Made by a program: the position numbers and the translations under genes. From Lachnospiraceae bacterium (lineage in GTDB: Bacteria > Bacillota > Clostridia > Lachnospirales > Lachnospiraceae): 64,000 nt of DNA. Under the pieces are notes generated by a model, which ran no database searches, was not told the origin of the DNA, and was given only the letters and a program-made list of their open reading frames with translations. Every line of letters begins with the position of its first letter. Within the stretch, counting starts at the first letter, position 1. The DNA lies in contig JAFZZY010000007.1 of NCBI GenBank assembly GCA_017615545.1, positions 1 to 64,000 on the forward strand. Direction: 5' to 3'. Positions 7,640 to 26,101 of this stretch are shown here, piece by piece.

Positions 7640-8359
7640 ATGGTTCGATTACGAAAACTGATCGAGAGGTTCATGCCGATCTATGCGGTATTACCTCTGA
7701 TCTGTTGCTTTGTATTTAATACTCTGATCTACACAGGCACGCGGTTGCTTTCCGCAGGACGGAAGCATTATGACATGACCCTGGAGATCGACCGGAACAC
7801 TCCTTTTGTGCAATGGACGGTCCTGATCTATTTCGGGTGCTTCGCCTTTTGGGCGTTGAACTACATCCTCATCGGCAGCATCAGCCGGGAACATTGTTAC
7901 CGGTTCTGCGTTGCAGATATGATGTCACGTGTTGTCTGTGCAGTCTTCTTTATCTTTACTCCGACCACGAACGTGCGTCCGGAAGTAGTGGGAGAAGGTT
8001 TTATCCCCATGTGTATGCATTTCCTGTATTGGATCGACCCTGCGGATAACCTGTTCCCGTCCATTCATTGCCTGGTCAGCTGGTTCTGCTACATCGGCAT
8101 ACGTGGCCAGAAAAAGATCCCGGTGGCATACCGGATCTTCTCGTTAGTCGTTGCATTTGCCGTGTTCGTTTCGACGCTCACGACGAAGCAGCATGTTATA
8201 GTGGATGTGATCTCCGGCGTTCTCATCGCCGAGATCCTGTACCGGCTCTCACAGCATTTCAACTGGTGGGAGAAGTATGCGAAAGTTGCCGACCGCGTGA
8301 CGGAATTTGTGTTCCGTTGCAAGGTAGTGGGGGATGAAAGTGAAAGCAAAGATATTTAA
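7640..8359 (+). CDS. PAP2-family membrane phosphatase
   Basis: 239 residues with about six membrane segments. PAP2 enzymes dephosphorylate lipid phosphates such as phosphatidate, PG-phosphate or undecaprenyl pyrophosphate, or act as lipid phosphotransferases. The family motifs are partly visible: NLFPSIHCLVSW around 138-149 (PSxH, catalytic His) and TKQHVIVDVISG around 175-186 (second catalytic His with downstream Asp). It starts 22 bp after purL and overlaps the next gene by 26 bp, so it leads a tightly packed membrane-lipid cassette. Because pssA and psd follow, a role in phospholipid metabolism is the natural guess, but the substrate is not determined. Confidence 0.8.
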   Translation: MVRLRKLIERFMPIYAVLPLICCFVFNTLIYTGTRLLSAGRKHYDMTLEIDRNTPFVQWTVLIYFGCFAFWALNYILIGSISREHCYRFCVADMMSRVVCAVFFIFTPTTNVRPEVVGEGFIPMCMHFLYWIDPADNLFPSIHCLVSWFCYIGIRGQKKIPVAYRIFSLVVAFAVFVSTLTTKQHVIVDVISGVLIAEILYRLSQHFNWWEKYAKVADRVTEFVFRCKVVGDESESKDI

Positions 8360-9380
8360 AATCCTCTTCTTTGTCGTTGTATTTGCGGTTACTATTTATA
8401 GCGTACTGAAGGGGAAGGATCTTAAATCCATATGGAACGCCATTTTGGGCGCCAGAAAACGATGGATCTTTCTGGCTTTGCTTCTGACTGTTTTGTTCAT
8501 CTGCAGCGAGTCTGTGATCATTTCCTACATGTTACGGGTGCTTAAATCGCCGGTCAAACTTTGGAAATGCATTCTGGTATCCTGGATCGGGTTCTTTTAC
8601 TGTTACATCACCCCGTCCGCTACCGGCGGCCAGCCCATGCAGATGTACTATCTGAAACGCGAAAACGTGGATTACAGTGTCAGCATGCCCGTCATCATGG
8701 TCGTAACGATCACTTACAAATTGATCTTGGTCGTGATCGGTATACCGCTGGTGATCTGGGGACGCCCCTATGTGCAGGAGCATGTCGGTGCCGCGGCGTT
8801 TTGGTTGTACCTCGGTGTACTGCTGAACATCATCTGCGTAGGCTTTATGTTGCTTCTTTTGTTCCGCATCAACTGGGCAGGTAAGATCCTATATCTGGGC
8901 CTGCGTTTCCTGAAGAAGATCCATCTGGTCCGCAATTATGAAGCGGCCGAAGCGAAACTGGTAGCTTTCATGAAGAGTTATCAGGATACGGCCAATTCCA
9001 TCGGCGGCCACTGGAAGATGTTGGGCAATGTAATGTTGATCACCATCCTTCAGCGTTTGTTTTATTTCAGTATTTCCTGGTGCGTCTATAAGTCGTTCGG
9101 GCTGTCGGGAACCGGTTTCTGGACCATTATCTTCCTGCAGGCCCTGATCGCGACTGCCGTAGACATGCTGCCGTTCCCCGGCGGAATGGGCATCACAGAA
9201 CATATGTTCGAGTTTTGTTTTGCCGCTATTTATCCTGCAGCATTGCTTACACCGGCAAACCTGTTGATGCGTGGCGTAACGTTTTACTCCATCGTATTCA
9301 TCGGTGCAGTTGTCACGTTTGTTTCCGCCTTTGTTTTTAAGAGAAGAGATCATAGATCAAACCAAGGAGTTTCTACATGA
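8334..9380 (+). CDS. UPF0104 / lysylphosphatidylglycerol-synthase-type flippase domain protein
   Basis: 348 residues, about eight to nine membrane helices, no soluble synthase domain. The family corresponds to the N-terminal flippase half of MprF (also called YbhN-like or UPF0104). Seen: the conserved SATGGQPMQMYYLKR segment around residues 96-110, and PFPGGMGITEHMF around 281-293 near the C-terminus. Overlaps the upstream PAP2 gene by 26 bp and the downstream pssA by 4 bp (ATGA), so it is translationally coupled to phospholipid synthesis genes. The most economical role is moving a lipid across the membrane, possibly the phosphatidylethanolamine made by the next two products. That cargo is inferred from context only. 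Confidence 0.8.
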   Translation: MKVKAKIFKILFFVVVFAVTIYSVLKGKDLKSIWNAILGARKRWIFLALLLTVLFICSESVIISYMLRVLKSPVKLWKCILVSWIGFFYCYITPSATGGQPMQMYYLKRENVDYSVSMPVIMVVTITYKLILVVIGIPLVIWGRPYVQEHVGAAAFWLYLGVLLNIICVGFMLLLLFRINWAGKILYLGLRFLKKIHLVRNYEAAEAKLVAFMKSYQDTANSIGGHWKMLGNVMLITILQRLFYFSISWCVYKSFGLSGTGFWTIIFLQALIATAVDMLPFPGGMGITEHMFEFCFAAIYPAALLTPANLLMRGVTFYSIVFIGAVVTFVSAFVFKRRDHRSNQGVST

Positions 9381-9997
9381 TAGGCTATTATGATTATACG
9401 ATCGTCACGACCTTTCTGAGTCTGTTTTCTTCGATGCTCGGCATCTTTCTGACATCGCAGTCGAATTACAAATTCGCGATCCTTTGTCTGGCATTGTCCG
9501 GTTTCTGTGATATGCTCGACGGTAAGATCGCGCGTACCAAAAAGAACCGCAGCGAAGAGCAGAAGAGCTTCGGTATCCAGTTGGATTCTCTTTGCGATAT
9601 CGTTTGCTTTGGCGTTTTCCCTGCATATTTTGCATACAGGAACGGCATGGACGGTATCGTTGGCATCGTGATCCTTCTGTTCTATGTTATGAACGGCGTA
9701 ATCCGCCTGGCATACTATAACGTGATGGAAGAGAAGCGCCAGAAAGAAACGGAAGGCTGCCGTAAGTTCTATTCGGGTCTGCCGATCACTTCGATCGCCA
9801 TTGCTTTGCCGATCTTTTATCTGGTCGGAAGTCTTTTGGAACATAAGTTTTACGTACTTTTGATCCACATCTGCATGACATCCGTCGGTGCTCTGTTTGT
9901 CGTAGATTTTAAGGTTAAGAAGCCTAACAACGCTCAGCTGGCAGTCATCGTCATCGTTGTTGCCATGGTCGTATTGTCCCTGTTGAAATTGATCTAG
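9377..9997 (+). CDS. pssA: CDP-diacylglycerol-serine O-phosphatidyltransferase
   Basis: 206-residue membrane enzyme of the CDP-alcohol phosphatidyltransferase family, probably making phosphatidylserine from CDP-diacylglycerol and serine. The catalytic signature is present: Asp45, Asp48-Gly49, Ala52-Arg53, Gly66, Asp70 and Asp74. The spacing between AR and the following Gly is 12 residues rather than the usual 8, a small insertion (TKKNRSEEQKSF). Start overlaps the flippase gene as ATGA. The assignment as a serine (not glycerol or inositol) enzyme rests on the adjacent phosphatidylserine decarboxylase gene 11 bp downstream. Confidence 0.88.
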   Translation: MIGYYDYTIVTTFLSLFSSMLGIFLTSQSNYKFAILCLALSGFCDMLDGKIARTKKNRSEEQKSFGIQLDSLCDIVCFGVFPAYFAYRNGMDGIVGIVILLFYVMNGVIRLAYYNVMEEKRQKETEGCRKFYSGLPITSIAIALPIFYLVGSLLEHKFYVLLIHICMTSVGALFVVDFKVKKPNNAQLAVIVIVVAMVVLSLLKLI

Positions 9998-10008
9998 GAG
10001 GTACATTC

Positions 10009-10926
10009 GTGCAGTATTACACCAGAATGACCAATTGCATATCCCGGGATCGTTATCCTTCGGCCGAACTGGTCGTAGACGACAGCAGCACGCAGGAGAA
10101 GATGCTTGGTTTTCTTTACGGGACCATGATCGGACGCGCTTTGCTGAAACCTTTGGTATCTCCGTTGGTATCGAAGTCTTGCGGCCGTTTCCTGGACAGC
10201 GGGCTTTCGAGAAAACTGATCCCTATCTTTATCAAAAAGTGCGGACTCGATATGACCTTCGTGAACCGCGAAGTCGACGATTTCAAATCGTACAATGATT
10301 TCTTTACCCGCGAACTCGTTGCCAATGCGAGACCGGTCGATCATACGAACGATCATCTGATCAGTCCGTGTGATTCTAAACTGCTGGTCTATGATATCGA
10401 TGAGGATCTGCGTGTACAGATCAAAAACACGACGTACACAATGCATGAACTCCTGCGGGATCAGCGTCTCGCAGAGAAATATAAGGGCGGATCGATGTTC
10501 ATTTTCCGCCTGTCTGTGGATGATTACCACAGATACTGCTATATCGATGACGGGATCAAGACGCATAACCGGCGGATCCCCGGAGTGTTCCATACGGTAC
10601 ATCCGGCGGCCGGCGATCTCTATCCGATCTACAAGCAGAACACCAGAGAGTATTGCATGATGCGCACCGATCATTTTGGTGATGTCATCATGATGGAGGT
10701 CGGCGCCCTGAATGTCGGCCGTATCGTAAATTACAAACAAAAAGGTCATTTCTCGCGCGGCGAGGAAAAGGGTCGCTTTGAATTCGGCGGTTCAACGATC
10801 GTTTTGTTCTTCGAAAAAGACCGGGTCGTGCCGGATCCGGATATCATGCTGCACAGTCAGTTGGACATTGAGACGAAGGTGAGCATGGGTGAAAAAATCG
10901 GCGTTGGAGGAGTAGGAAATGTTTGA
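10009..10926 (+). CDS. psd: Phosphatidylserine decarboxylase proenzyme
   Basis: 305 residues. Decarboxylates phosphatidylserine to phosphatidylethanolamine using a pyruvoyl group made by self-cleavage. The cleavage motif is FGGST, with the pyruvoyl-forming Ser at residue 262, in a C-terminal position normal for the family; FFTREL near residue 100 and HRYCYIDDG near 175-183 are further conserved blocks. Starts at GTG 10009 behind a strong AGGAGG site. Follows pssA by 11 bp and overlaps the next ORF by 8 bp. Together with PssA it completes the PE pathway. Confidence 0.93.
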   Translation: MQYYTRMTNCISRDRYPSAELVVDDSSTQEKMLGFLYGTMIGRALLKPLVSPLVSKSCGRFLDSGLSRKLIPIFIKKCGLDMTFVNREVDDFKSYNDFFTRELVANARPVDHTNDHLISPCDSKLLVYDIDEDLRVQIKNTTYTMHELLRDQRLAEKYKGGSMFIFRLSVDDYHRYCYIDDGIKTHNRRIPGVFHTVHPAAGDLYPIYKQNTREYCMMRTDHFGDVIMMEVGALNVGRIVNYKQKGHFSRGEEKGRFEFGGSTIVLFFEKDRVVPDPDIMLHSQLDIETKVSMGEKIGVGGVGNV

Positions 10927-12052
10927 AGCACAAGTGCAGGAGTTCAATCAGAAACTCGAGGGTGTGGTTGAACTTGCAAAGCAGGATCTCGAAGCGGCTA
11001 CAAATTCGTTAGAGGAACTTGCGAAAGAACTGGATAATATCGTACCCATGGAAAGTAACGAATACTATGAGTGCCGATATAATGCATACGAGATCCTTTC
11101 GGATTTCAAACTGATGGCGCGTAAGTTCCCGCAGTGTGAGGCAGATCTGAAAGAGATGATCAAAGCTGCCATGGAACTGTATAAGCGTGACGAGGAGGAT
11201 TATTCCCTTCATGTTTCCACCGCTTATTTCAAACTCGGTGCTTTGGGCCGCATCTGCAATAATATGGCGACCATGACCGAGCCTCGCGTCTTAAACGAGG
11301 AAGAGCAGAAGGTCTTTGATACGATCCTGAATTACTACAAATTGGCGATCCGTTATACGATCGAGGAACTGAAGACCGGACATATCAAGATCGTGACCCT
11401 GCATGCTACCGCTTTGGAGCATATGGGCGTTATGTATGCCAACGTGGGCAATAATAAAGATGCCATCACCGCTTTGGAGCAGTCGATCAATTTCCAGAAG
11501 GCCGTTTACGATAAACGTGACGACCGTACGAGCGGTATCCAGCTTGCCATGCGCATGAACATGATCTCGAATGTCTACAATCGCATGCATGACATGCAGA
11601 AGGTCGTAGATACTTTGGAGGACTCCATCTTCGTTCTGGAGGAACTGGAGGATGCAGACCCCGTCAACATCAAGATCCTGCTGTGCCGTCACTGCCTGAA
11701 TCTTGCCGGTGCTTATGCACGTGTCCGCGAGGAGGCTGCGAAGGCGCCCGCAATGTATCAAAAGGGTGTTGCAAAGGTAGAAGAGGCTTGCAAACTCAAC
11801 GATAAAGAAGCGATCCCGGATGTGATCATGGCCAATTATCTCGCGGCGCAGTATTTCTTCGTGTGCAAGCGTAACGAGATCTGCAAGCGTATGCTCAGAC
11901 GCGCGATCGAGGCAGGAACCTATTTCAAAGAGAATTCCGGATCCGATGAGTATGATAACTTCGTAAGCATCAGTAAGAACCTGTTGGCTCGCCTCGAGGA
12001 AGAAGAAGCGAAAGCAAAAGAGCCGAAGAAGGCCGACGAGACGAAGAAGTAA
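10919..12052 (+). CDS. TPR-like helical repeat protein, unknown function
   Basis: 377 residues, soluble, predominantly helical, with tetratricopeptide-like repeats in the middle (for example AITALEQSINFQKAVYDKR around residues 180-200, and helices to about 300). N-terminal region is coiled-coil-like with Leu/Glu heptads; the C-terminus is a lysine/glutamate-rich tail. No signal peptide or catalytic motif seen. The ATG at 10919 lies inside the end of psd with GGAGG upstream, so it is coupled to the lipid cassette and may be a scaffold or regulator for it, but nothing in the sequence proves that. Confidence 0.7.
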   Translation: MFEAQVQEFNQKLEGVVELAKQDLEAATNSLEELAKELDNIVPMESNEYYECRYNAYEILSDFKLMARKFPQCEADLKEMIKAAMELYKRDEEDYSLHVSTAYFKLGALGRICNNMATMTEPRVLNEEEQKVFDTILNYYKLAIRYTIEELKTGHIKIVTLHATALEHMGVMYANVGNNKDAITALEQSINFQKAVYDKRDDRTSGIQLAMRMNMISNVYNRMHDMQKVVDTLEDSIFVLEELEDADPVNIKILLCRHCLNLAGAYARVREEAAKAPAMYQKGVAKVEEACKLNDKEAIPDVIMANYLAAQYFFVCKRNEICKRMLRRAIEAGTYFKENSGSDEYDNFVSISKNLLARLEEEEAKAKEPKKADETKK

Positions 12053-12213: not shown

Positions 12214-14343
12214 ATGTTACAGGGTGTAAAAGTTATAAAAAAGGACGGAACGAAGGAGGACTTTAATGTCCAGAAGGTCGTCGTTGCCGTCAATAAATCC
12301 GCATACCGCGCTCTGGTCAAATTTACACAGCAAGAGCTGGATTTCATTTGCCAGTTTGTAGAAGAGAAGGTAGAGGAGCTGGGCGTCAAAGAGATCGCCA
12401 TCGCCCAGATGCATAATGTTGTTGAGGGCGCTTTGGAGCGTGTGAACCCTGTGGTAGCGAAGTCGTACCGCGACTACCGCAACTATAAGCAGGACTTCGT
12501 TCAGATGCTGGATGAGGTTTATAAGGCCAGCCAGTCCATCATGTACATCGGTGATAAGGAGAACTCCAACACCGACAGTGCGCTCGTTTCCTCCAAGCGC
12601 AGTCTGATCTTCAACGAGCTGAATAAGTCCCTGTATAAGAAGTTCTTCCTGACAACGGAGGAACTGCAGGCGATCCGTGAAGGTTACCTCTATATCCACG
12701 ATATGGCGGCGCGTCGTGACACCATGAACTGCTGTCTGTTCAACGTCGAAGAGGTGCTGCGTGGCGGTTTCGAGATGGGTAATCTTTGGTATAACGAGCC
12801 GAAGACGCTGGATGTTGCTTTCGACGTTATCGGTGATATCGTTCTTTCGGCTGCAAGCCAGCAGTACGGCGGTTTCACCATTCCGCAGGCAGATAAGATC
12901 CTCGAGCCTTACGCGGAAAAATCCTATGTGAAATATATCAAGAAATATACCGACCTCGGCATCAGCGAGGAACGTGCAAAGGAAGAAGCGATCAAAGATA
13001 TTGAGCGCGACTTCGAACAGGGCTTCCAGGGCTGGGAGTATAAGTTTAACACCGTTGCATCTTCCCGCGGCGACTATCCCTTCATTACAGTGACGGCAGG
13101 TATCGGAACCGGTCGTTTCGCGAAGATGGCGACCATCAAGATGCTGCAGGTGCGTCGCAAAGGTCAGGGTAAGGCGGAGTGTAAGAAACCCGTTCTCTTC
13201 CCGAAGATCGTTTTCCTATACGATGAGAATCTGCACGGCCCCGGCTGCGAGCTAGAGGATGTTTTCGAGGCAGGTATCGAGTGCTCTTCGAAGACCATGT
13301 ATCCCGACTGGCTCTCATTGACCGGAAAGGGTTACATCGCCAGCATGTATAAAAACTACGGAGAGGTCATCTCCCCGATGGGATGTCGTGCGTTCCTGTC
13401 GCCTTGGTATGAGCGCGGCGGCATGCATCCGGCGGATGATAAAGATAAGCCCGTATTTGTCGGCCGTTTCAATATCGGCGTTGTCAGCCTGCATTTGCCG
13501 ATGATCCTGGCGAAATCCCGTCAGGAATCCAGAGATTTCTATGAAGTGCTGGATTACTACCTGAACCTGATCCGTCAGCTGCACATCCGTACTTATGCTT
13601 ATCTGGGCGAGATGAAGGCTTCCACAAACCCGCTGGCATACTGTGAGGGCGGTTTCTACGGCGGCCATCTGGGTATTCATGATAAGATCAAGCCGGTCCT
13701 GAAGGCTGCGACCGCATCCTTTGGTATCACGGCGTTTAATGAACTCCAGCAGCTCTACAATGGCAAATCGCTCGTAGAGGACGGAGAGTTCGCTCTGGAA
13801 GTCCTGACCTACATCAATAAAAAGATCGAGGAGTTCAAAGAGGCCGATGGCCATCTGTACGCGATCTATGCGACACCGGCTGAGAACCTCTGTGGCCTGC
13901 AGGTAAAGCAGTTCCGTAAGAAGTACGGAATCGTGGAAAATGTATCCGACCGTGAATATGTAAGCAATGGTTTCCATTGCCACGTTACAGAGAATATCAC
14001 GCCGATCCAGAAGCAGGATCTCGAGTATCGTTTCTGGGAACTTTCGAACGGCGGTAAGATCCAGTATGTAAAGTACCCGATCGACTACAACAAAGAGGCG
14101 ATCAAGACGCTGGTGCGCCGCGCCATGAAGATGGGCTTCTACGAGGGTGTTAACATGTCCCTGGCGTACTGTGATGACTGCGGTCACCAGGAACTGGAGA
14201 TGGATGTATGTCCGAAGTGCGGCAGCCGCAATCTGACGAAGATCGATCGTATGAACGGTTATCTTTCCTACTCGAGAGTTAAGGGTGACACCCGTCTGAA
14301 CGCTGCGAAGATGGCTGAGATCGCCGAAAGAAAATCAATGTAA
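12214..14343 (+). CDS. nrdD: Anaerobic (class III) ribonucleoside-triphosphate reductase
   Basis: 709 residues. Reduces ribonucleoside triphosphates to deoxy forms using a glycyl radical. An ATP-cone regulatory domain covers about residues 1-95. The catalytic barrel follows. Near the end is a four-cysteine zinc ribbon (C-D-D-C and C-P-K-C) and the glycyl radical loop RMNGYL with Gly682. The radical is installed by NrdG, encoded 14 bp downstream. Start at ATG 12214 with GGGAGG upstream. The second nrdD at 19008 has a different C-terminus, so this is one of two distinct class III enzymes. Confidence 0.94.
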   Translation: MLQGVKVIKKDGTKEDFNVQKVVVAVNKSAYRALVKFTQQELDFICQFVEEKVEELGVKEIAIAQMHNVVEGALERVNPVVAKSYRDYRNYKQDFVQMLDEVYKASQSIMYIGDKENSNTDSALVSSKRSLIFNELNKSLYKKFFLTTEELQAIREGYLYIHDMAARRDTMNCCLFNVEEVLRGGFEMGNLWYNEPKTLDVAFDVIGDIVLSAASQQYGGFTIPQADKILEPYAEKSYVKYIKKYTDLGISEERAKEEAIKDIERDFEQGFQGWEYKFNTVASSRGDYPFITVTAGIGTGRFAKMATIKMLQVRRKGQGKAECKKPVLFPKIVFLYDENLHGPGCELEDVFEAGIECSSKTMYPDWLSLTGKGYIASMYKNYGEVISPMGCRAFLSPWYERGGMHPADDKDKPVFVGRFNIGVVSLHLPMILAKSRQESRDFYEVLDYYLNLIRQLHIRTYAYLGEMKASTNPLAYCEGGFYGGHLGIHDKIKPVLKAATASFGITAFNELQQLYNGKSLVEDGEFALEVLTYINKKIEEFKEADGHLYAIYATPAENLCGLQVKQFRKKYGIVENVSDREYVSNGFHCHVTENITPIQKQDLEYRFWELSNGGKIQYVKYPIDYNKEAIKTLVRRAMKMGFYEGVNMSLAYCDDCGHQELEMDVCPKCGSRNLTKIDRMNGYLSYSRVKGDTRLNAAKMAEIAERKSM

Positions 14344-18796: not shown

Positions 18797-18820
18797 AATC
18801 AAGCGAAAATACATGGAATC

Positions 18821-18860
18821 TACACTTGGAGCAGAGCATTTCCGCCCCAAGTGTATTTAT
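18821..18860 (+). terminator. Probable intrinsic terminator after hflX
   Basis: TACACTTGG (18821-18829) pairs with CCAAGTGTA (18847-18855) across a 17-nt loop, followed by TTTATTT. It directly precedes the regulatory region of the second nrdD. Confidence 0.6.
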
Positions 18861-18868
18861 TTCAGTAC

Positions 18869-18884
18869 ATACCATATATTGTGT
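18869..18884 (+). promoter_or_regulatory. NrdR box 1 of the second nrdD
   Basis: ATACCATATATTGTGT matches 14 of 16 consensus positions for NrdR boxes; lies just upstream of the -35. Confidence 0.7.
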
Positions 18885-18893
18885 TTTTACCTG

Positions 18894-18922
18894 TTGACAC
18901 CCACCATATTGTGTGCTACAAT
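18894..18922 (+). promoter_or_regulatory. Promoter of the second nrdD
   Basis: TTGACA (18894-18899), 17 bp, TACAAT (18917-18922). The spacer is filled by NrdR box 2, so NrdR binding would block RNA polymerase. Confidence 0.85.
18899..18914 (+). promoter_or_regulatory. NrdR box 2 of the second nrdD
   Basis: ACCCACCATATTGTGT lies exactly 30 bp downstream of box 1, about three helical turns, as is typical for paired NrdR boxes. The right half ATATTGTGT is strong, the left half weaker. Confidence 0.6.
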
Positions 18923-19007
18923 AAGGCATAACAACACAAAACATACTCCTTTTGACGGTATTTTGTCGGGAGAGCTCGAAAAAAGATATAAAAAAGAGGG
19001 AACTATT

Positions 19008-21398
19008 ATGATCAAGGTTATTAAGAGAGATGGGGAAACAGCGGAATTTCAGATCGCGAAGATCGAGGCAGCGATCGAAAAGGCCTTTGTTGCAACCGAG
19101 AAACTGGTAAATAAGGACATCATCCAGCTTCTCGCTCTGCGCGTTACGGCAGACTTCCAGACGAAGCAGAAGGACGGATGCATCACCGTCGAACAGATCC
19201 AGGACAGCGTTGAGCACGTGCTCGAGCAGTCCGGATACACCGACGTTGCAAAGGCATACATCCTGTACCGTAAGCAGCGTGAGAAGATCCGTAACATGAA
19301 GTCCACGATCCTGGACTATCGTGATGTCGTTAACAGCTACGTAAAGGTAGAAGACTGGCGTGTTAAGGAGAACTCTACCGTTACCTATTCGGTCGGCGGT
19401 CTGATCCTTTCCAACTCCGGTGCCGTTACCGCGAACTACTGGCTGTCCGAGATCTACGACGAAGAGATCGCGAAGGCACACCGTGAGGCGGATATTCACA
19501 TCCATGATCTGTCCATGCTGACCGGTTACTGCGCAGGCTGGTCCCTGAAGCAGCTCATCGTGGAAGGCCTCGGCGGTATCCCCGGTAAGATCACATCGGC
19601 TCCTGCAAAGCACCTTTCCGTTCTTTGCAACCAGATGGTAAACTTCCTCGGTATCATGCAGAACGAGTGGGCAGGCGCACAGGCATTTTCCTCGTTCGAC
19701 ACCTATCTGGCACCGTTCGTTAAGGCAGATCACCTGACCTATCCGGAAGTTAAGAAGTGCATCGAAGCTTTCGTATATGGTGTAAATACACCTTCCCGTT
19801 GGGGTACACAGGCTCCGTTCTCGAACATCACCTTAGACTGGACCGTACCGAACGACCTGGCAGAACTTCCTGCGATCGTGGGCGGTAAGGAAATGGATTT
19901 CAAGTATAAGGATTGTAAGCCTGAGATGGATATGGTGAACCGTGCGTTCATCGAGACCATGCTCGAAGGCGATGCAAACGGTCGCGGCTTCCAGTATCCG
20001 ATCCCGACCTACTCGATCACCCGGGATTTTGATTGGTCCGACACCGAGAACAACCGTCTGCTGTTCGAGATGACTTCTAAGTATGGTACTCCGTATTTCT
20101 CGAACTATATCAACAGCGACATGCAGCCTTCGGACGTTCGCAGTATGTGCTGCCGTCTGCGTCTGGATCTGCGTGAGCTTCGTAAGAAGACCGGCGGTTT
20201 CTTCGGTTCCGGCGAGAGCACAGGTAGCGTAGGCGTTGTTACGATCAATATGCCTCGTATCGCTTACCTGTCGGCCAATGAAGAGGAGTTCTATGCTCGT
20301 CTCGATCGCCTGATGGATATCTCTGCGCGTTCTTTGAAGATCAAGCGTGGCGTTATCACGAAGCTTTTGAACGAAGGTCTGTATCCTTACACCAAGCGTT
20401 ACCTGGGTACCTTCGATAACCACTTCTCGACGATCGGTCTGGTCGGCATGAACGAAGCAGGTCTGAACGCTAAGTGGATCAAGGCTGATATGACCGATGT
20501 GAAGACACAGGAATTCTCCAAGCGTGTTCTGAACCACATGCGTGAGCGCCTGTCCGATTATCAGGAGCAGTACGGTGATCTCTACAACCTCGAGGCAACC
20601 CCTGCCGAGTCGACCGCTTATCGTCTGGCTCGTCACGACAAGAAGAGATTCCCTGACATCATCAGCTCCGGCATGAATGGTGAGCCTTACTATACCAACA
20701 GTTCTCACCTGCCTGTAGGTTACACAGAGGATATCTTCGAAGCACTGGACATCCAGGATAAGCTTCAGACCCTGTACACCTCCGGTACTGTATTCCATAC
20801 GTTCCTGGGTGAGCGTCTGCCCGACTGGAAGGCAGCTGCGAAGCTGGTTCGTACGATCGCAGAAAATTACGAGCTTCCGTACTATACATTGTCCCCGACC
20901 TACTCCGTATGTCAGTCACACGGCTACATCAATGGCGAAGTCGAGATGTGCCCGATCTGCGGCAAGAAGGCCGAGATCTACAGCCGTATCACCGGTTACT
21001 ATCGTCCGGTTCAGAACTGGAACGAAGGTAAGCGTGCGGAGTTCAACGATCGTCTGGTCTACAAGATCGACGCGGAAAGAGTTGCTGCGAAGAACGCGCA
21101 TCCGATGCAGGCAGTGGCTGCTGTTGACAAGCTTGAAGTAAGCGAAGACACTGCTTCCGCAACGACCGAGAAGCGCATGCTGTTCACCACGAAGACCTGC
21201 CCGAACTGCAAGATCGCTAAGACCATGCTCGGCGATATGGACTACGAGGTCATCGACGCTGAGGAAAATGCGGACCTGGTTTCCAAGTACGGAGTAATGC
21301 AGGCACCGACCTTCATCGTAACGAACGGAGAGCACACGGATAAATATACCAATGCTTCCGAGATCAAGCGTTACGTAGACAGCCTTGCGAAAGGTTGA
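19008..21398 (+). CDS. nrdD: Class III ribonucleotide reductase fused to a C-terminal glutaredoxin-like domain
   Basis: 796 residues. N-terminal ATP cone (about 1-95, starting MIKVIKRDGE), a glycyl-radical catalytic barrel, a zinc-binding Cys group (with C-P-I-C) and the radical loop SRITGYYRPVQNW with Gly663. After an Ala/Glu/Thr-rich linker (about 700-720), residues 722-796 form a thioredoxin-fold domain with the redox pair Cys731-Pro-Asn-Cys734 and a cis-Pro-like QAPTFIV. This looks like a built-in reductant in the style of NrdH. No nrdG follows; activation probably depends on the nrdG at 14357 or another activase. Start at 19008 because the promoter and NrdR boxes lie within the longer open frame. 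Confidence 0.93.
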   Translation: MIKVIKRDGETAEFQIAKIEAAIEKAFVATEKLVNKDIIQLLALRVTADFQTKQKDGCITVEQIQDSVEHVLEQSGYTDVAKAYILYRKQREKIRNMKSTILDYRDVVNSYVKVEDWRVKENSTVTYSVGGLILSNSGAVTANYWLSEIYDEEIAKAHREADIHIHDLSMLTGYCAGWSLKQLIVEGLGGIPGKITSAPAKHLSVLCNQMVNFLGIMQNEWAGAQAFSSFDTYLAPFVKADHLTYPEVKKCIEAFVYGVNTPSRWGTQAPFSNITLDWTVPNDLAELPAIVGGKEMDFKYKDCKPEMDMVNRAFIETMLEGDANGRGFQYPIPTYSITRDFDWSDTENNRLLFEMTSKYGTPYFSNYINSDMQPSDVRSMCCRLRLDLRELRKKTGGFFGSGESTGSVGVVTINMPRIAYLSANEEEFYARLDRLMDISARSLKIKRGVITKLLNEGLYPYTKRYLGTFDNHFSTIGLVGMNEAGLNAKWIKADMTDVKTQEFSKRVLNHMRERLSDYQEQYGDLYNLEATPAESTAYRLARHDKKRFPDIISSGMNGEPYYTNSSHLPVGYTEDIFEALDIQDKLQTLYTSGTVFHTFLGERLPDWKAAAKLVRTIAENYELPYYTLSPTYSVCQSHGYINGEVEMCPICGKKAEIYSRITGYYRPVQNWNEGKRAEFNDRLVYKIDAERVAAKNAHPMQAVAAVDKLEVSEDTASATTEKRMLFTTKTCPNCKIAKTMLGDMDYEVIDAEENADLVSKYGVMQAPTFIVTNGEHTDKYTNASEIKRYVDSLAKG

Positions 21399-22780: not shown

Positions 22781-23428
22781 ATGAAGAAACAACAACACTA
22801 TGTCATCACATTGGGCCGCAAGTACGGTTCCGGCGGCGGTGAAGTCGCTAAGAAACTTTCAGAAAAACTGGGCATCCCGTATTATGACAAAGAGATCCTC
22901 CAGATGGTCGCTGATGAGAGCGGTATCAAGGAGAGTTATTTCCATTTGGCAGACGAGCGTGCCGGCGATAAGATCCTGTATAAGGTTATGAAGTCCATGT
23001 CTCCGAAGATCTCCAGCCCTTCCGTGGACGGAAATATCCTTTCCGACGACAACCTTTTTATGTTCCAGTCCCAGGTCATCCAGAAGCTGGCGGAGCAGGA
23101 GTCCTGTATCATCATCGGACGCTGCGCGGACGTTGTCCTGAAGGATCATCCGAGACTGTGCCGTATCTTTATCAATGCCGATAAGATCCCGCGTATGTTC
23201 CGTCTGAAGGAGCGTTTGGGCGTCGACACGAATAAAGAGATCGAGAAACTGATGAAGAAGACCGATAAACAGCGGTCGGATTATTATAATTACTATACAG
23301 GTAAAAAGTGGGCAGATATGGATAACTATGACATGATCCTGGACAGTGGTGTTCTCGGGATCGATACCTGTGTAGATGTGATCGCGGCGTATGTCGAGAT
23401 CCGAGGTTTCCTGGAAGCCGGAAAATAA
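22781..23428 (+). CDS. Cytidylate-kinase-like family protein
   Basis: 215 residues, P-loop kinase fold. ITLGRKYGSGGGEVAKKLSE at residues 9-28 is the phosphate-binding loop in the form GxxxGSGG found in the Cytidylate_kin2 family, common in Clostridia and distinct from true Cmk. CIIIGRCADVVL around 108-119 and a lid-like RLKERLG with DKQRSDYYNYYTG follow. The expected role is phosphorylation of a nucleoside monophosphate or related small molecule, but the substrate is unproven. GGAGG precedes the ATG at 22781; 14 bp after folA. Confidence 0.85.
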   Translation: MKKQQHYVITLGRKYGSGGGEVAKKLSEKLGIPYYDKEILQMVADESGIKESYFHLADERAGDKILYKVMKSMSPKISSPSVDGNILSDDNLFMFQSQVIQKLAEQESCIIIGRCADVVLKDHPRLCRIFINADKIPRMFRLKERLGVDTNKEIEKLMKKTDKQRSDYYNYYTGKKWADMDNYDMILDSGVLGIDTCVDVIAAYVEIRGFLEAGK

Positions 23429-23446: not shown

Positions 23447-26101
23447 ATGAAAAAAAAGTCAACACGGTTTACGATCCTGGTCATAAGTCTGGTCCTTACG
23501 GTCCTGCTTGTGGTCGGTGTCCTTATTTTCCTGGCCGTAAAGGCCGGAGTTCTTCCGATCGGCAACGATCATGAGACGAAGTCGGTAGCCGTTCTGGGTG
23601 ATAAGACCACGCAGGCGCCGCCTGTCGAGGCCTCGGACACGGAACCCGATTCGGAAGTCGTTTCTCCGGAAGCTCCTGTTACAGAGCCTTCGGTAGCAAC
23701 GGATGATGAGAGCACAGAGGATAAGACCGAAGAGAATACAACCGAAGAAAGCGAAGATGTCTGGCCACACGAGCGAGAGGGAGTGTGGGCGGCTTTTTCG
23801 CATGCAGAAAAAGAGGCAGATCTGGATGGTTCCATGTCTGTTTTTTCGGATGCTTCCGTTTCCGGAAAGACTGCCCTTCGTCTGTTCGGTGGCCAGAAGA
23901 ACCGTTTGGTATTCTACAACGATTCGGATGCTCATTGTGATATCTATTTTTTCACCTCTGTTTCCGACGAAGATGACGATCCTTCATTTACCCTGAAGGC
24001 CGGCGAAGAAAAAGAATTCCGGTTTTCCGTGAAGGAAAATACGACTGTTTCGTATGTCCTCGCATACTCCGGCGAAGCGGGCAATGCATGCTATATCCCG
24101 GATAATGAGAGCCTGAAGCAGCTGAATAAAGAGTTTAAGATCTCGTCCGGTTCCGTGATCCACCTGGAAGGCGCGGCATCGGAATATGATGTGGATGAAT
24201 TATATAAACTGCCCGAATGTGAGATCGTATGGAAAGGAAATGGTGTCACGGGTGAGTTCATCGCCTTATATACGTTTGCGACCAAATGGAACGACGAGGA
24301 TATCCTCGGGAACTATGAGGTCGGCGGTTCTGCTGATGTTAAATTGAACGGCGTTTCGATCCTGCCTGCCCAGAATTCATTTGCCACAAAAGAACTGAAA
24401 TATGAGCAGAGCGGCAATTCCTTTAAAGTTAAGTTGCCGATCGAAGTGAACAAAAACACGACGACGAATACGCGTCTCAGTATAAGCGCGAACGGGAATG
24501 TCGAGCTCTCCGGTGAGGGCTTGAATCCCGATGGTACCGTGAATATCTTTAAACCGGTCATCTGTAAGGTGACGGACGCGAACGGTCAGACCCACGGATA
24601 TCGGCTTTCTGCAACCTATGAAAGCTATAATGTTCCAGTGGTCTACATCACGACCTCGAACGGGAAGATGGTGTCGAGTAAAAGCACATATATTACCGGC
24701 ACATTTTCCATGGATGCAGATCATGTGCCCGGCATCGACTCGATCCCGGAGATGACCATGCAGATCAAAGGCCGCGGTCACAGCACATGGAAGAAGGAAA
24801 AGAAGCCGTTTAACATCAAGTTCGATCAAAAGGTCAGCATTTTGGGGCTGCCTTCGAACCGAGATTGGGTCATGCTGGCCAATTATTTCGACCCGACGAT
24901 GTCCCGAAATTATATTTCGTTTGAACTCGCGCGGCAGATGAATTTTGATTTTACACCCTCGACATTCCCGGTACAGGTCATTTATAATGGCAAATATATC
25001 GGCATGTATTGTATCGGCGATAAGGTCGAGATCGCAAGCGGACGCGTGAATCAGACAAAGCATTCCTCGGAAGTGGATCGCGATTACCTGATCGAGGTAC
25101 GCGGATATGAGTCCGGTTATCGGATGGGTCATTCTGCGTTTACCGCAGGGCTGCTTCGCGATGTTGCGATCAAAAACCCGGAGCCCGAAGAGATCACCGC
25201 GGCTCAATACAAATATATCTATGATTATGTTATGGCTGCCAACGACGCAGTTGTGAACCTGTCGAACTACGAAGACTATATCGACATAGATTCTCTGGTC
25301 GACTGGTTTATCATTACGGAGCTCACGTATAACTGCGACGGCGCGTTCAACCGTAGCGTTTACATCGAAAAACGGGCAGGACAGAAACTGAAGTTCCAGC
25401 CGGTTTGGGATTTCGATCTGGCACTGGGCAATGTCGGAAACCTGACGCCGGAATACGACAGCTGGGCTTGCTCACAAAACGGTTTTACCGATACGGAGAT
25501 CACTTGGGGAACCTACCTGGTACAGGATCCTAAGTTCATGGCTCGCCTTGAAAAACGTTGGAAAGAAGTCAGAGGCATCCTGCGCTCGACTGCGACCGAA
25601 TCGCTGAAGACCATGCGCCATTTGATGTATAAAGTCGGTGACGCAAACTTCAACATGTGGGTGATTCCGGGAGAACGCCAGGGCTGGGAGTGGTCGTTTG
25701 TTTCCGACTACCTGGATTACAAACAACACATGGATTACATCGAGGTCTTCCTGGAGAAGAGATTCAATGTTATGGATAAGGTCCTCATTGACCATGCTTC
25801 CATGCGATATTATGCAGATGGCAAACTGCACGGTGATCCGATCCTTACCGATACGACCTATCCGGTTTCCAGCCTGACACTGGAAAAAGCTACGGCCGAA
25901 TCGACCGAAGAGACGGAGAATCCGGAGGAGACTACGCCGGACGAATCGGATCCGGAGGAACCTGATACACAGGCTCCGGAGGAAGAAACACAGCCTGCCG
26001 AAGAAACAGGGCAGGAGAACCCCGGCGGGGCCGAGGTTCCGGAAACTGCGGCGCCTCAGGAAACTGAGCCGCAGACTATGGAGGAGGCTTCCTCCGACTG
26101 A
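23447..26101 (+). CDS. Membrane-anchored CotH-type kinase protein
   Basis: 884 residues. One N-terminal membrane helix (about 8-32) with the bulk outside the cell. An acidic Thr/Glu/Pro-rich stalk (about 45-105) leads to a beta-rich region and then a CotH domain (about 395-800). CotH marks: QIKGRGHSTW beginning at residue 439 and W654-D-F-D-L-A-L-G-N, the metal-binding segment of this atypical protein kinase fold. A Pro/Glu/Thr-rich tail closes the chain. In Bacillus CotH phosphorylates spore coat proteins, but no sporulation genes lie nearby, and membrane-anchored CotH proteins are common in non-sporing Clostridia. Target unknown. The Shine-Dalgarno is weak (ACAGG). Confidence 0.85.
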   Translation: MKKKSTRFTILVISLVLTVLLVVGVLIFLAVKAGVLPIGNDHETKSVAVLGDKTTQAPPVEASDTEPDSEVVSPEAPVTEPSVATDDESTEDKTEENTTEESEDVWPHEREGVWAAFSHAEKEADLDGSMSVFSDASVSGKTALRLFGGQKNRLVFYNDSDAHCDIYFFTSVSDEDDDPSFTLKAGEEKEFRFSVKENTTVSYVLAYSGEAGNACYIPDNESLKQLNKEFKISSGSVIHLEGAASEYDVDELYKLPECEIVWKGNGVTGEFIALYTFATKWNDEDILGNYEVGGSADVKLNGVSILPAQNSFATKELKYEQSGNSFKVKLPIEVNKNTTTNTRLSISANGNVELSGEGLNPDGTVNIFKPVICKVTDANGQTHGYRLSATYESYNVPVVYITTSNGKMVSSKSTYITGTFSMDADHVPGIDSIPEMTMQIKGRGHSTWKKEKKPFNIKFDQKVSILGLPSNRDWVMLANYFDPTMSRNYISFELARQMNFDFTPSTFPVQVIYNGKYIGMYCIGDKVEIASGRVNQTKHSSEVDRDYLIEVRGYESGYRMGHSAFTAGLLRDVAIKNPEPEEITAAQYKYIYDYVMAANDAVVNLSNYEDYIDIDSLVDWFIITELTYNCDGAFNRSVYIEKRAGQKLKFQPVWDFDLALGNVGNLTPEYDSWACSQNGFTDTEITWGTYLVQDPKFMARLEKRWKEVRGILRSTATESLKTMRHLMYKVGDANFNMWVIPGERQGWEWSFVSDYLDYKQHMDYIEVFLEKRFNVMDKVLIDHASMRYYADGKLHGDPILTDTTYPVSSLTLEKATAESTEETENPEETTPDESDPEEPDTQAPEEETQPAEETGQENPGGAEVPETAAPQETEPQTMEEASSD

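Follow-up and report, generated by a model that had tools for sequence, protein, structure and literature searches.

A 64,000-nt stretch of DNA from Lachnospiraceae bacterium GCA_017615545.1 (contig JAFZZY010000007.1, positions 1 to 64,000; hereafter the window) contains a row of five genes which we interpret as an operon for phosphatidylethanolamine (PE). According to this reading, PssA and Psd synthesize PE, a membrane protein of the UPF0104 family exports it in the stead of the DedA-family transporter PetA, a PAP2-fold enzyme acts on or with it, and the TPR-like protein encoded last in the row is a local addition. We estimate the probability of this interpretation at about 0.68. The operon is of a known kind, PE synthesis together with a transporter; what is new is that another transporter family occupies the transporter seat and that a PE-dependent PAP2 enzyme has been added.

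Organization of the operon

All five reading frames are open and lie on the forward strand. The first encodes a PAP2_3-type membrane enzyme (7640-8359, PF14378/PF01569) with a predicted fold like that of SMSr, inositol phosphorylceramide (IPC) synthase and Aur1. It is followed by the gene for the UPF0104, or LPG_synthase_TM, membrane protein (8334-9380, PF03706), which is MprF flippase-like, lacks a synthase domain and is the proposed PE scramblase. Next come pssA, encoding CDP-diacylglycerol-serine phosphatidyltransferase (9377-9997, PF01066, with the CDP-alcohol motif at 9509-9598), and psd, encoding phosphatidylserine decarboxylase (10009-10926, PF02666, with the GGST self-cleavage motif at 10786-10797). 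The row ends with the gene for the TPR-like soluble protein (10919-12052), a genus-specific neighbour with a weak TPR match. PAP2 overlaps UPF0104 by 26 bp and UPF0104 overlaps pssA by 4 bp (ATGA), pssA and psd are separated by 11 bp, and psd, which starts with GTG preceded by a good AGGAGG, overlaps the TPR gene by 8 bp. The tight packing and the ATGA coupling of UPF0104 to pssA, both pointed out in a preliminary description of this DNA, are thus present exactly as it had placed them.

In the proposed pathway, PssA would form phosphatidylserine (PS) from CDP-diacylglycerol and serine, and Psd would convert PS to PE in the cytoplasmic leaflet. The UPF0104 protein, through its MprF-type transport domain, would then allow newly made PE to equilibrate into the outer leaflet, standing in for PetA and owing its selectivity to synthesis beside the PE enzymes rather than to an attached synthase. 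Finally, the PAP2-fold protein would act on or with PE, probably at the outer face, as suggested by its fold and by its restriction to psd-positive genomes.

Both biosynthetic enzymes are assigned to their families, which are known to produce PS and PE on the cytoplasmic side of the membrane. PssA matches CDP-OH_P_transf (PF01066, E=3.9e-15, 57 bits against a cut-off of 22), and its sequence displays the CDP-alcohol phosphotransferase motif DMLDGKIAR...G...D...D, with 12 residues from AR to G instead of 8. Psd matches PF02666 (E=9.6e-54, 182.5 bits against a cut-off of 22) and its self-cleavage site, GGST, fits the pattern (L/G)GS(T/S). Both proteins score below the NCBI equivalog cut-offs (86.7 vs 107 bits in TIGR00473 for PssA, 293.9 vs 371 bits for Psd).

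The 348-aa UPF0104 protein matches LPG_synthase_TM (PF03706) over residues 14-324 (E=1.9e-38, 133.1 bits against 33.4), and residues invariant in the family include those of TPS..GGQP and of a PxPG..G..E segment. It scores only 21.9 bits against a cut-off of 600 for bifunc_MprF and has no C-terminal aminoacyl-phosphatidylglycerol synthase domain, so it is not a bifunctional MprF proper; nor is it a DedA, as it has no PF09335 (VTT) match. Domain searches thereby confirm the earlier remark that the synthase domain is missing. Its AlphaFold model (24 sequences, mean predicted local distance difference test score, pLDDT, 86.6) matched all six MprF structures with Z-scores of 17.6-20.7 over 290-302 residues, the next unrelated structure being at Z 6.2. 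The predicted fold is that of the MprF flippase domain. A PDB sequence search with the UPF0104 profile returned no significant chain.

Conservation of the four-gene core

We compared the neighbourhoods of 80 psd loci from GTDB species, 81 with the window. The order PAP2-UPF0104-pssA-psd is kept, despite differing flanks, across many genera, including Roseburia, Herbinix, Velocimicrobium, Diplocloster, Blautia, Dorea, Faecalicatena and Emergencia, and is also seen in other families of Clostridia. Near psd, 27 of the 81 loci have PAP2, UPF0104 and pssA, six have UPF0104 and pssA without PAP2, three have PAP2 and pssA without UPF0104, and 36, mostly from Ruminococcus, have none of the three. Where UPF0104 and pssA adjoin, the 4-base ATGA overlap occurs more often than any other spacing (35 of 92 pairs, without de-duplication). 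In pairwise comparisons at 18 loci, the divergence of UPF0104 follows that of Psd just as well as the divergence of PssA does (Spearman coefficients 0.76 and 0.77), a parallel that fits shared descent. The four-gene core is a conserved unit.

Since the gene order recurs in many genera, the arrangement is not due to chance. That the row is a chance assembly or a housekeeping cluster following purL might be entertained because the end of purL lies only 22 bp upstream of the row, an anaerobic ribonucleotide reductase gene begins 161 bp downstream, these purL and nrdD flanks recur only within the same genus among the compared psd loci, and a promoter and terminator scan of the locus gave signals no commoner than in shuffled sequence. 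For the core, however, this explanation is already refuted by the like order of the four genes beside other flanks, and we consider it scarcely credible; only the TPR gene fits it.

We further surveyed 150 genomes of the Lachnospiraceae, with roughly one from each genus; because these genomes are related and events in them are not independent, the p-values given here and below are indicative only. Matches over the cut-off were obtained for UPF0104 in 73 genomes and for DedA likewise in 73, and psd is present in 59. UPF0104 and psd co-occur strongly (both in 47 genomes, psd only in 12, UPF0104 only in 26, neither in 65; odds ratio 9.8, p=7e-10). In at least 35 of the 59 psd genomes, contig ends making this a lower bound, the two genes are on the same strand and no more than 5 kb apart, so that the association with pssA-psd predicted for relatives of the window is borne out. 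DedA is absent from 19 of these 35 genomes. The genome from which the window comes (completeness 100%) encodes a single UPF0104 protein, and a DedA (PF09335) gene was not found in it.

DedA in place of UPF0104

In four genomes from four families (G229, G040, G600 and G346), a DedA (VTT-domain) protein is encoded beside pssA-psd instead of UPF0104. G229, from the window's family, has no UPF0104 and carries PAP2, DedA, pssA and psd in this order, with spacings of -4, -1 and 1 bp; the PAP2 subfamily of the window also occurs beside DedA here. G040, from another family and likewise without UPF0104, has DedA-pssA-psd. The DedA proteins of these two genomes (VTT_dom E-values 1.9e-19 and 1.8e-20, respectively) are 51% identical. 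When the pair was used as query against 398 genomes of the phylum, the top two matches (E 5e-77 and 1e-70; next 8e-47) both proved to sit in DedA-pssA-psd, with PAP2 directly behind psd in one case. UPF0104 is missing from three of the four genomes, the exception being G600, in which a UPF0104 gene (C5:79711-80658) lies about 10 kb from the DedA-pssA-psd-PAP2 operon (contig of L249). Across the 150 genomes the negative association between UPF0104 and DedA is weak (p=0.08), and the swap argument is therefore founded on the operon seat. DedA and UPF0104 proteins exchange at one such seat, from which we infer that they are equivalent in function.

Several observations weigh against PE export by UPF0104. 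Among the 35 genomes in which UPF0104 is linked to psd, 16 carry DedA elsewhere. No adjoining UPF0104 is found in 24 of the 59 psd genomes, although contig ends account for a few of these, and in seven psd genomes no match to either UPF0104 or DedA passes the cut-off; neither family is thus strictly needed for PE synthesis. A single clade of psd-linked UPF0104 proteins was rejected on the tree, in which they fall into more than one deep branch with five label changes, at least two of them forced by well-supported branches, so that the link to psd has been gained or lost more than once. In addition, in the case of the related protein HexF, the lipid is still made in its absence (PMC10128005). 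Finally, because some DedA proteins flip undecaprenyl phosphate (C55-P) (PMC12893004), a shared seat alone does not fix the cargo.

The last point also speaks for UPF0104 moving another lipid, such as C55-P, PS, diacylglycerol (DAG) or phosphatidylglycerol (PG), and being merely co-expressed with PE synthesis, as does the finding that MprF of Pseudomonas aeruginosa is a promiscuous, energy-independent scramblase of many lipids (PMC11980842). Nonetheless, the repeated linkage is to pssA and psd specifically, as reflected in the odds ratio with psd, and it is a DedA protein that takes the same seat; we regard a different cargo as unlikely. PE as the cargo of UPF0104 would be consistent with the suggestion by the authors of the MprF study that enzyme proximity sets cargo, and the same work terms DedA and MprF domains 'somewhat interchangeable' (PMC11980842).

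A PAP2-fold enzyme linked to PE

PAP2, to which the preliminary description assigned no role, is the operon partner most strictly tied to PE. The profile of its subfamily identified 29 of the 150 genomes at E about 4e-59 or better, all other matches being at 4e-38 or worse, and the subfamily is present in 29 of 59 psd-positive versus 0 of 91 psd-negative genomes (p=7e-15). The weaker matches correspond to a general paralogue that most of the genomes contain, the window's own among them (G000:C4:50763). Three motifs are invariant in the subfamily, PTTNxRP (aa 108-114), PSxH (140-143) and KQHxxxD (183-189), and read PTTNVRP, PSIH and KQHVIVD in the window protein. The catalytic His, His and Asp are invariant in 22 of 22 members, nine of which match PAP2_C. 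The catalytic motif fails to tell the subfamily from the general paralogue, which is present with or without psd, as both have PSxH and KQH.

The structural model of PAP2 (pLDDT 90) matches SMSr (Z 14.4), IPC synthase (13.1) and Aur1 (12.5), the phosphatases LpxE (11.7) and PgpB (11.4) being lower. A Foldseek search with the model likewise placed SMSr, IPC synthase and Aur1 as the top three, and a PDB sequence search with the PAP2 profile gave no significant chain. SMSr, IPC synthase and Aur1 transfer a phospho-head group from PE or phosphatidylinositol. The window protein has the PAP2 fold with the catalytic His, His and Asp that these enzymes require; as the fold is common to phosphatases, the fold and catalytic residues do not decide whether it belongs with them. 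From the link to psd and the predicted fold, PE is a possible head-group donor for PAP2.

Such use would extend the proposed synthesis and export of PE by a further step: in gut and rumen Clostridia, PAP2_3 would transfer phosphoethanolamine from outer-leaflet PE, flipped by UPF0104 or, in other lineages, by DedA, to a surface acceptor, possibly a glycolipid, teichoic acid or wall glycan, and free DAG. There is precedent in SMSr, which draws on PE to add phosphoethanolamine to ceramide and is also able to hydrolyse phospholipids (PMC7988496), and the ranking of folds, the invariant catalytic residues, the PAP2_C matches and the restriction to psd-positive genomes point in the same direction. 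However, the fold does not show the reaction, no acceptor gene is linked and the subfamily is missing in half of the psd genomes; moreover, as the gap in fold similarity to phosphatases is modest and the motifs are common to the paralogue, phosphoethanolamine transfer can be proposed only tentatively, with odds well short of even. Alternatively, PAP2 may be an ordinary lipid phosphate phosphatase, acting on phosphatidic acid (PA), lysophosphatidic acid, phosphatidylglycerol phosphate (PGP) or undecaprenyl pyrophosphate (C55-PP) and tuning the DAG/PA pool for PE synthesis. Its PF01569/PF14378 matches, PSxH and HxxxD motifs and proximity in fold to LpxE and PgpB make this a plausible explanation, if a little under an even chance, given that the subfamily is absent from all psd-negative genomes, though these too need a PGP/C55-PP phosphatase, and that the same genome has a second PAP2.

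How phospholipids move in bulk across the bacterial inner membrane is still largely an open question. Two transporter families exchanging at one seat, mostly in genomes where the other is absent, suggest a specific cargo for the otherwise promiscuous UPF0104 proteins, and a strictly PE-linked PAP2 points to an unrecognised use of PE at the outer face in common gut and rumen bacteria.

The TPR gene and other neighbours

The TPR protein scores 23.5 bits against the TPR_12 cut-off of 30.1, and its homologue of 24% identity exceeds the TPR_10 cut-off; a PDB sequence search with the protein gave no significant chain. At psd loci the gene is found only in near relatives (about 90% psd identity) and, among the 150 family genomes, in its own genus plus the 24% homologue, which belongs to a psd-negative genome. 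The preliminary description had proposed a dedicated PE synthesis and translocation unit with the TPR protein as organiser, expecting this gene, too, beside pssA-psd in relatives. The PE part is well supported by the linkage of UPF0104 and by DedA in the same seat, whereas the organiser role is rejected, since the gene is confined to the genus and its sole remote homologue lies in a genome without psd. The TPR protein is probably a local addition outside the conserved function.

The anaerobic ribonucleotide reductase gene downstream of the row (12214-14343, judged from its translation only) is one of two of NrdD type in the window; the other, about 4.5 kb away (18813-21398), has NRDD and ATP-cone domains according to Pfam. 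A CotH kinase family protein (PF08757, 884 aa) is encoded at 23447-26101.

Other gene arrangements were seen around psd. In Ruminococcus (e.g. L024:3716-7952), proteins of about 976-989 and 409-443 aa with BcrAD_BadFG and DUF2229 domains are encoded directly upstream of psd; these presumably resemble the plasmalogen genes PlsA/PlsR, which suggests that PE at these loci is made for plasmenyl-PE. A cytidylate-kinase-like gene (PF13189) lies directly upstream of pssA/psd at L045:5496-6200, L177:3889-4518, L198:3774-4406 and L211:264-893, and CMP released by PssA could be the substrate of its product; the corresponding gene of the window (22781-23428) is apart from pssA. At L187:2681-6661 and L197:3585-9118, pssA-psd is preceded by a gene for a CDP-archaeol-synthase-like (CarS-like) protein and followed by one for a UbiA-like protein, along with DAGK or PPDK-like genes. 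At L181:5761-6477 (reverse strand), a 238-aa protein with no Pfam match is encoded with a 4 bp overlap with pssA.

Comparison with known systems

The nearest solved folds to the window PAP2 are SMSr, IPC synthase and Aur1, with which it has the conserved His/His/Asp in common; identity is 9-11%, head-group transfer is putative and ceramide synthesis is not known here. The UPF0104 protein shares its Pfam family and predicted fold with the MprF flippase domain and with YbhN/PplT-type proteins but, unlike MprF, it has no aminoacyl-PG synthase domain and is tied to PE synthesis. A stand-alone UPF0104 protein in a lipid-making operon is also found in hexSDF of Clostridioides difficile and gpgSDF of P. 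aeruginosa (PMC10128005, PMC12713373), which, unlike the window operon, make amino-glycolipids via a glycosyltransferase and a deacetylase, not PE. Our literature search found no description of UPF0104 beside pssA-psd, although such a description may exist.

The closest counterpart is in Bacillus subtilis, whose YbfM we take to be the DedA-family protein PetA. There, pssA-ybfM-psd is given as a single operon (PMC8144471), and two papers report that the DedA protein PetA transports PE (PMC12893004, with reference to Roney and Rudner 2023; also PMC11980842). The initial statement that the combination had no established function overlooked both. As in B. subtilis, a PS synthase, a polytopic lipid transporter and a PS decarboxylase are brought together in one operon, the transporter gene, with predicted PE transport, lying directly beside pssA and psd in the window (8334-10926). 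The window operon differs in that the transporter is a UPF0104 protein (PF03706) and not a DedA (PF09335), in the order of its genes, and in having an extra PAP2_3 gene.

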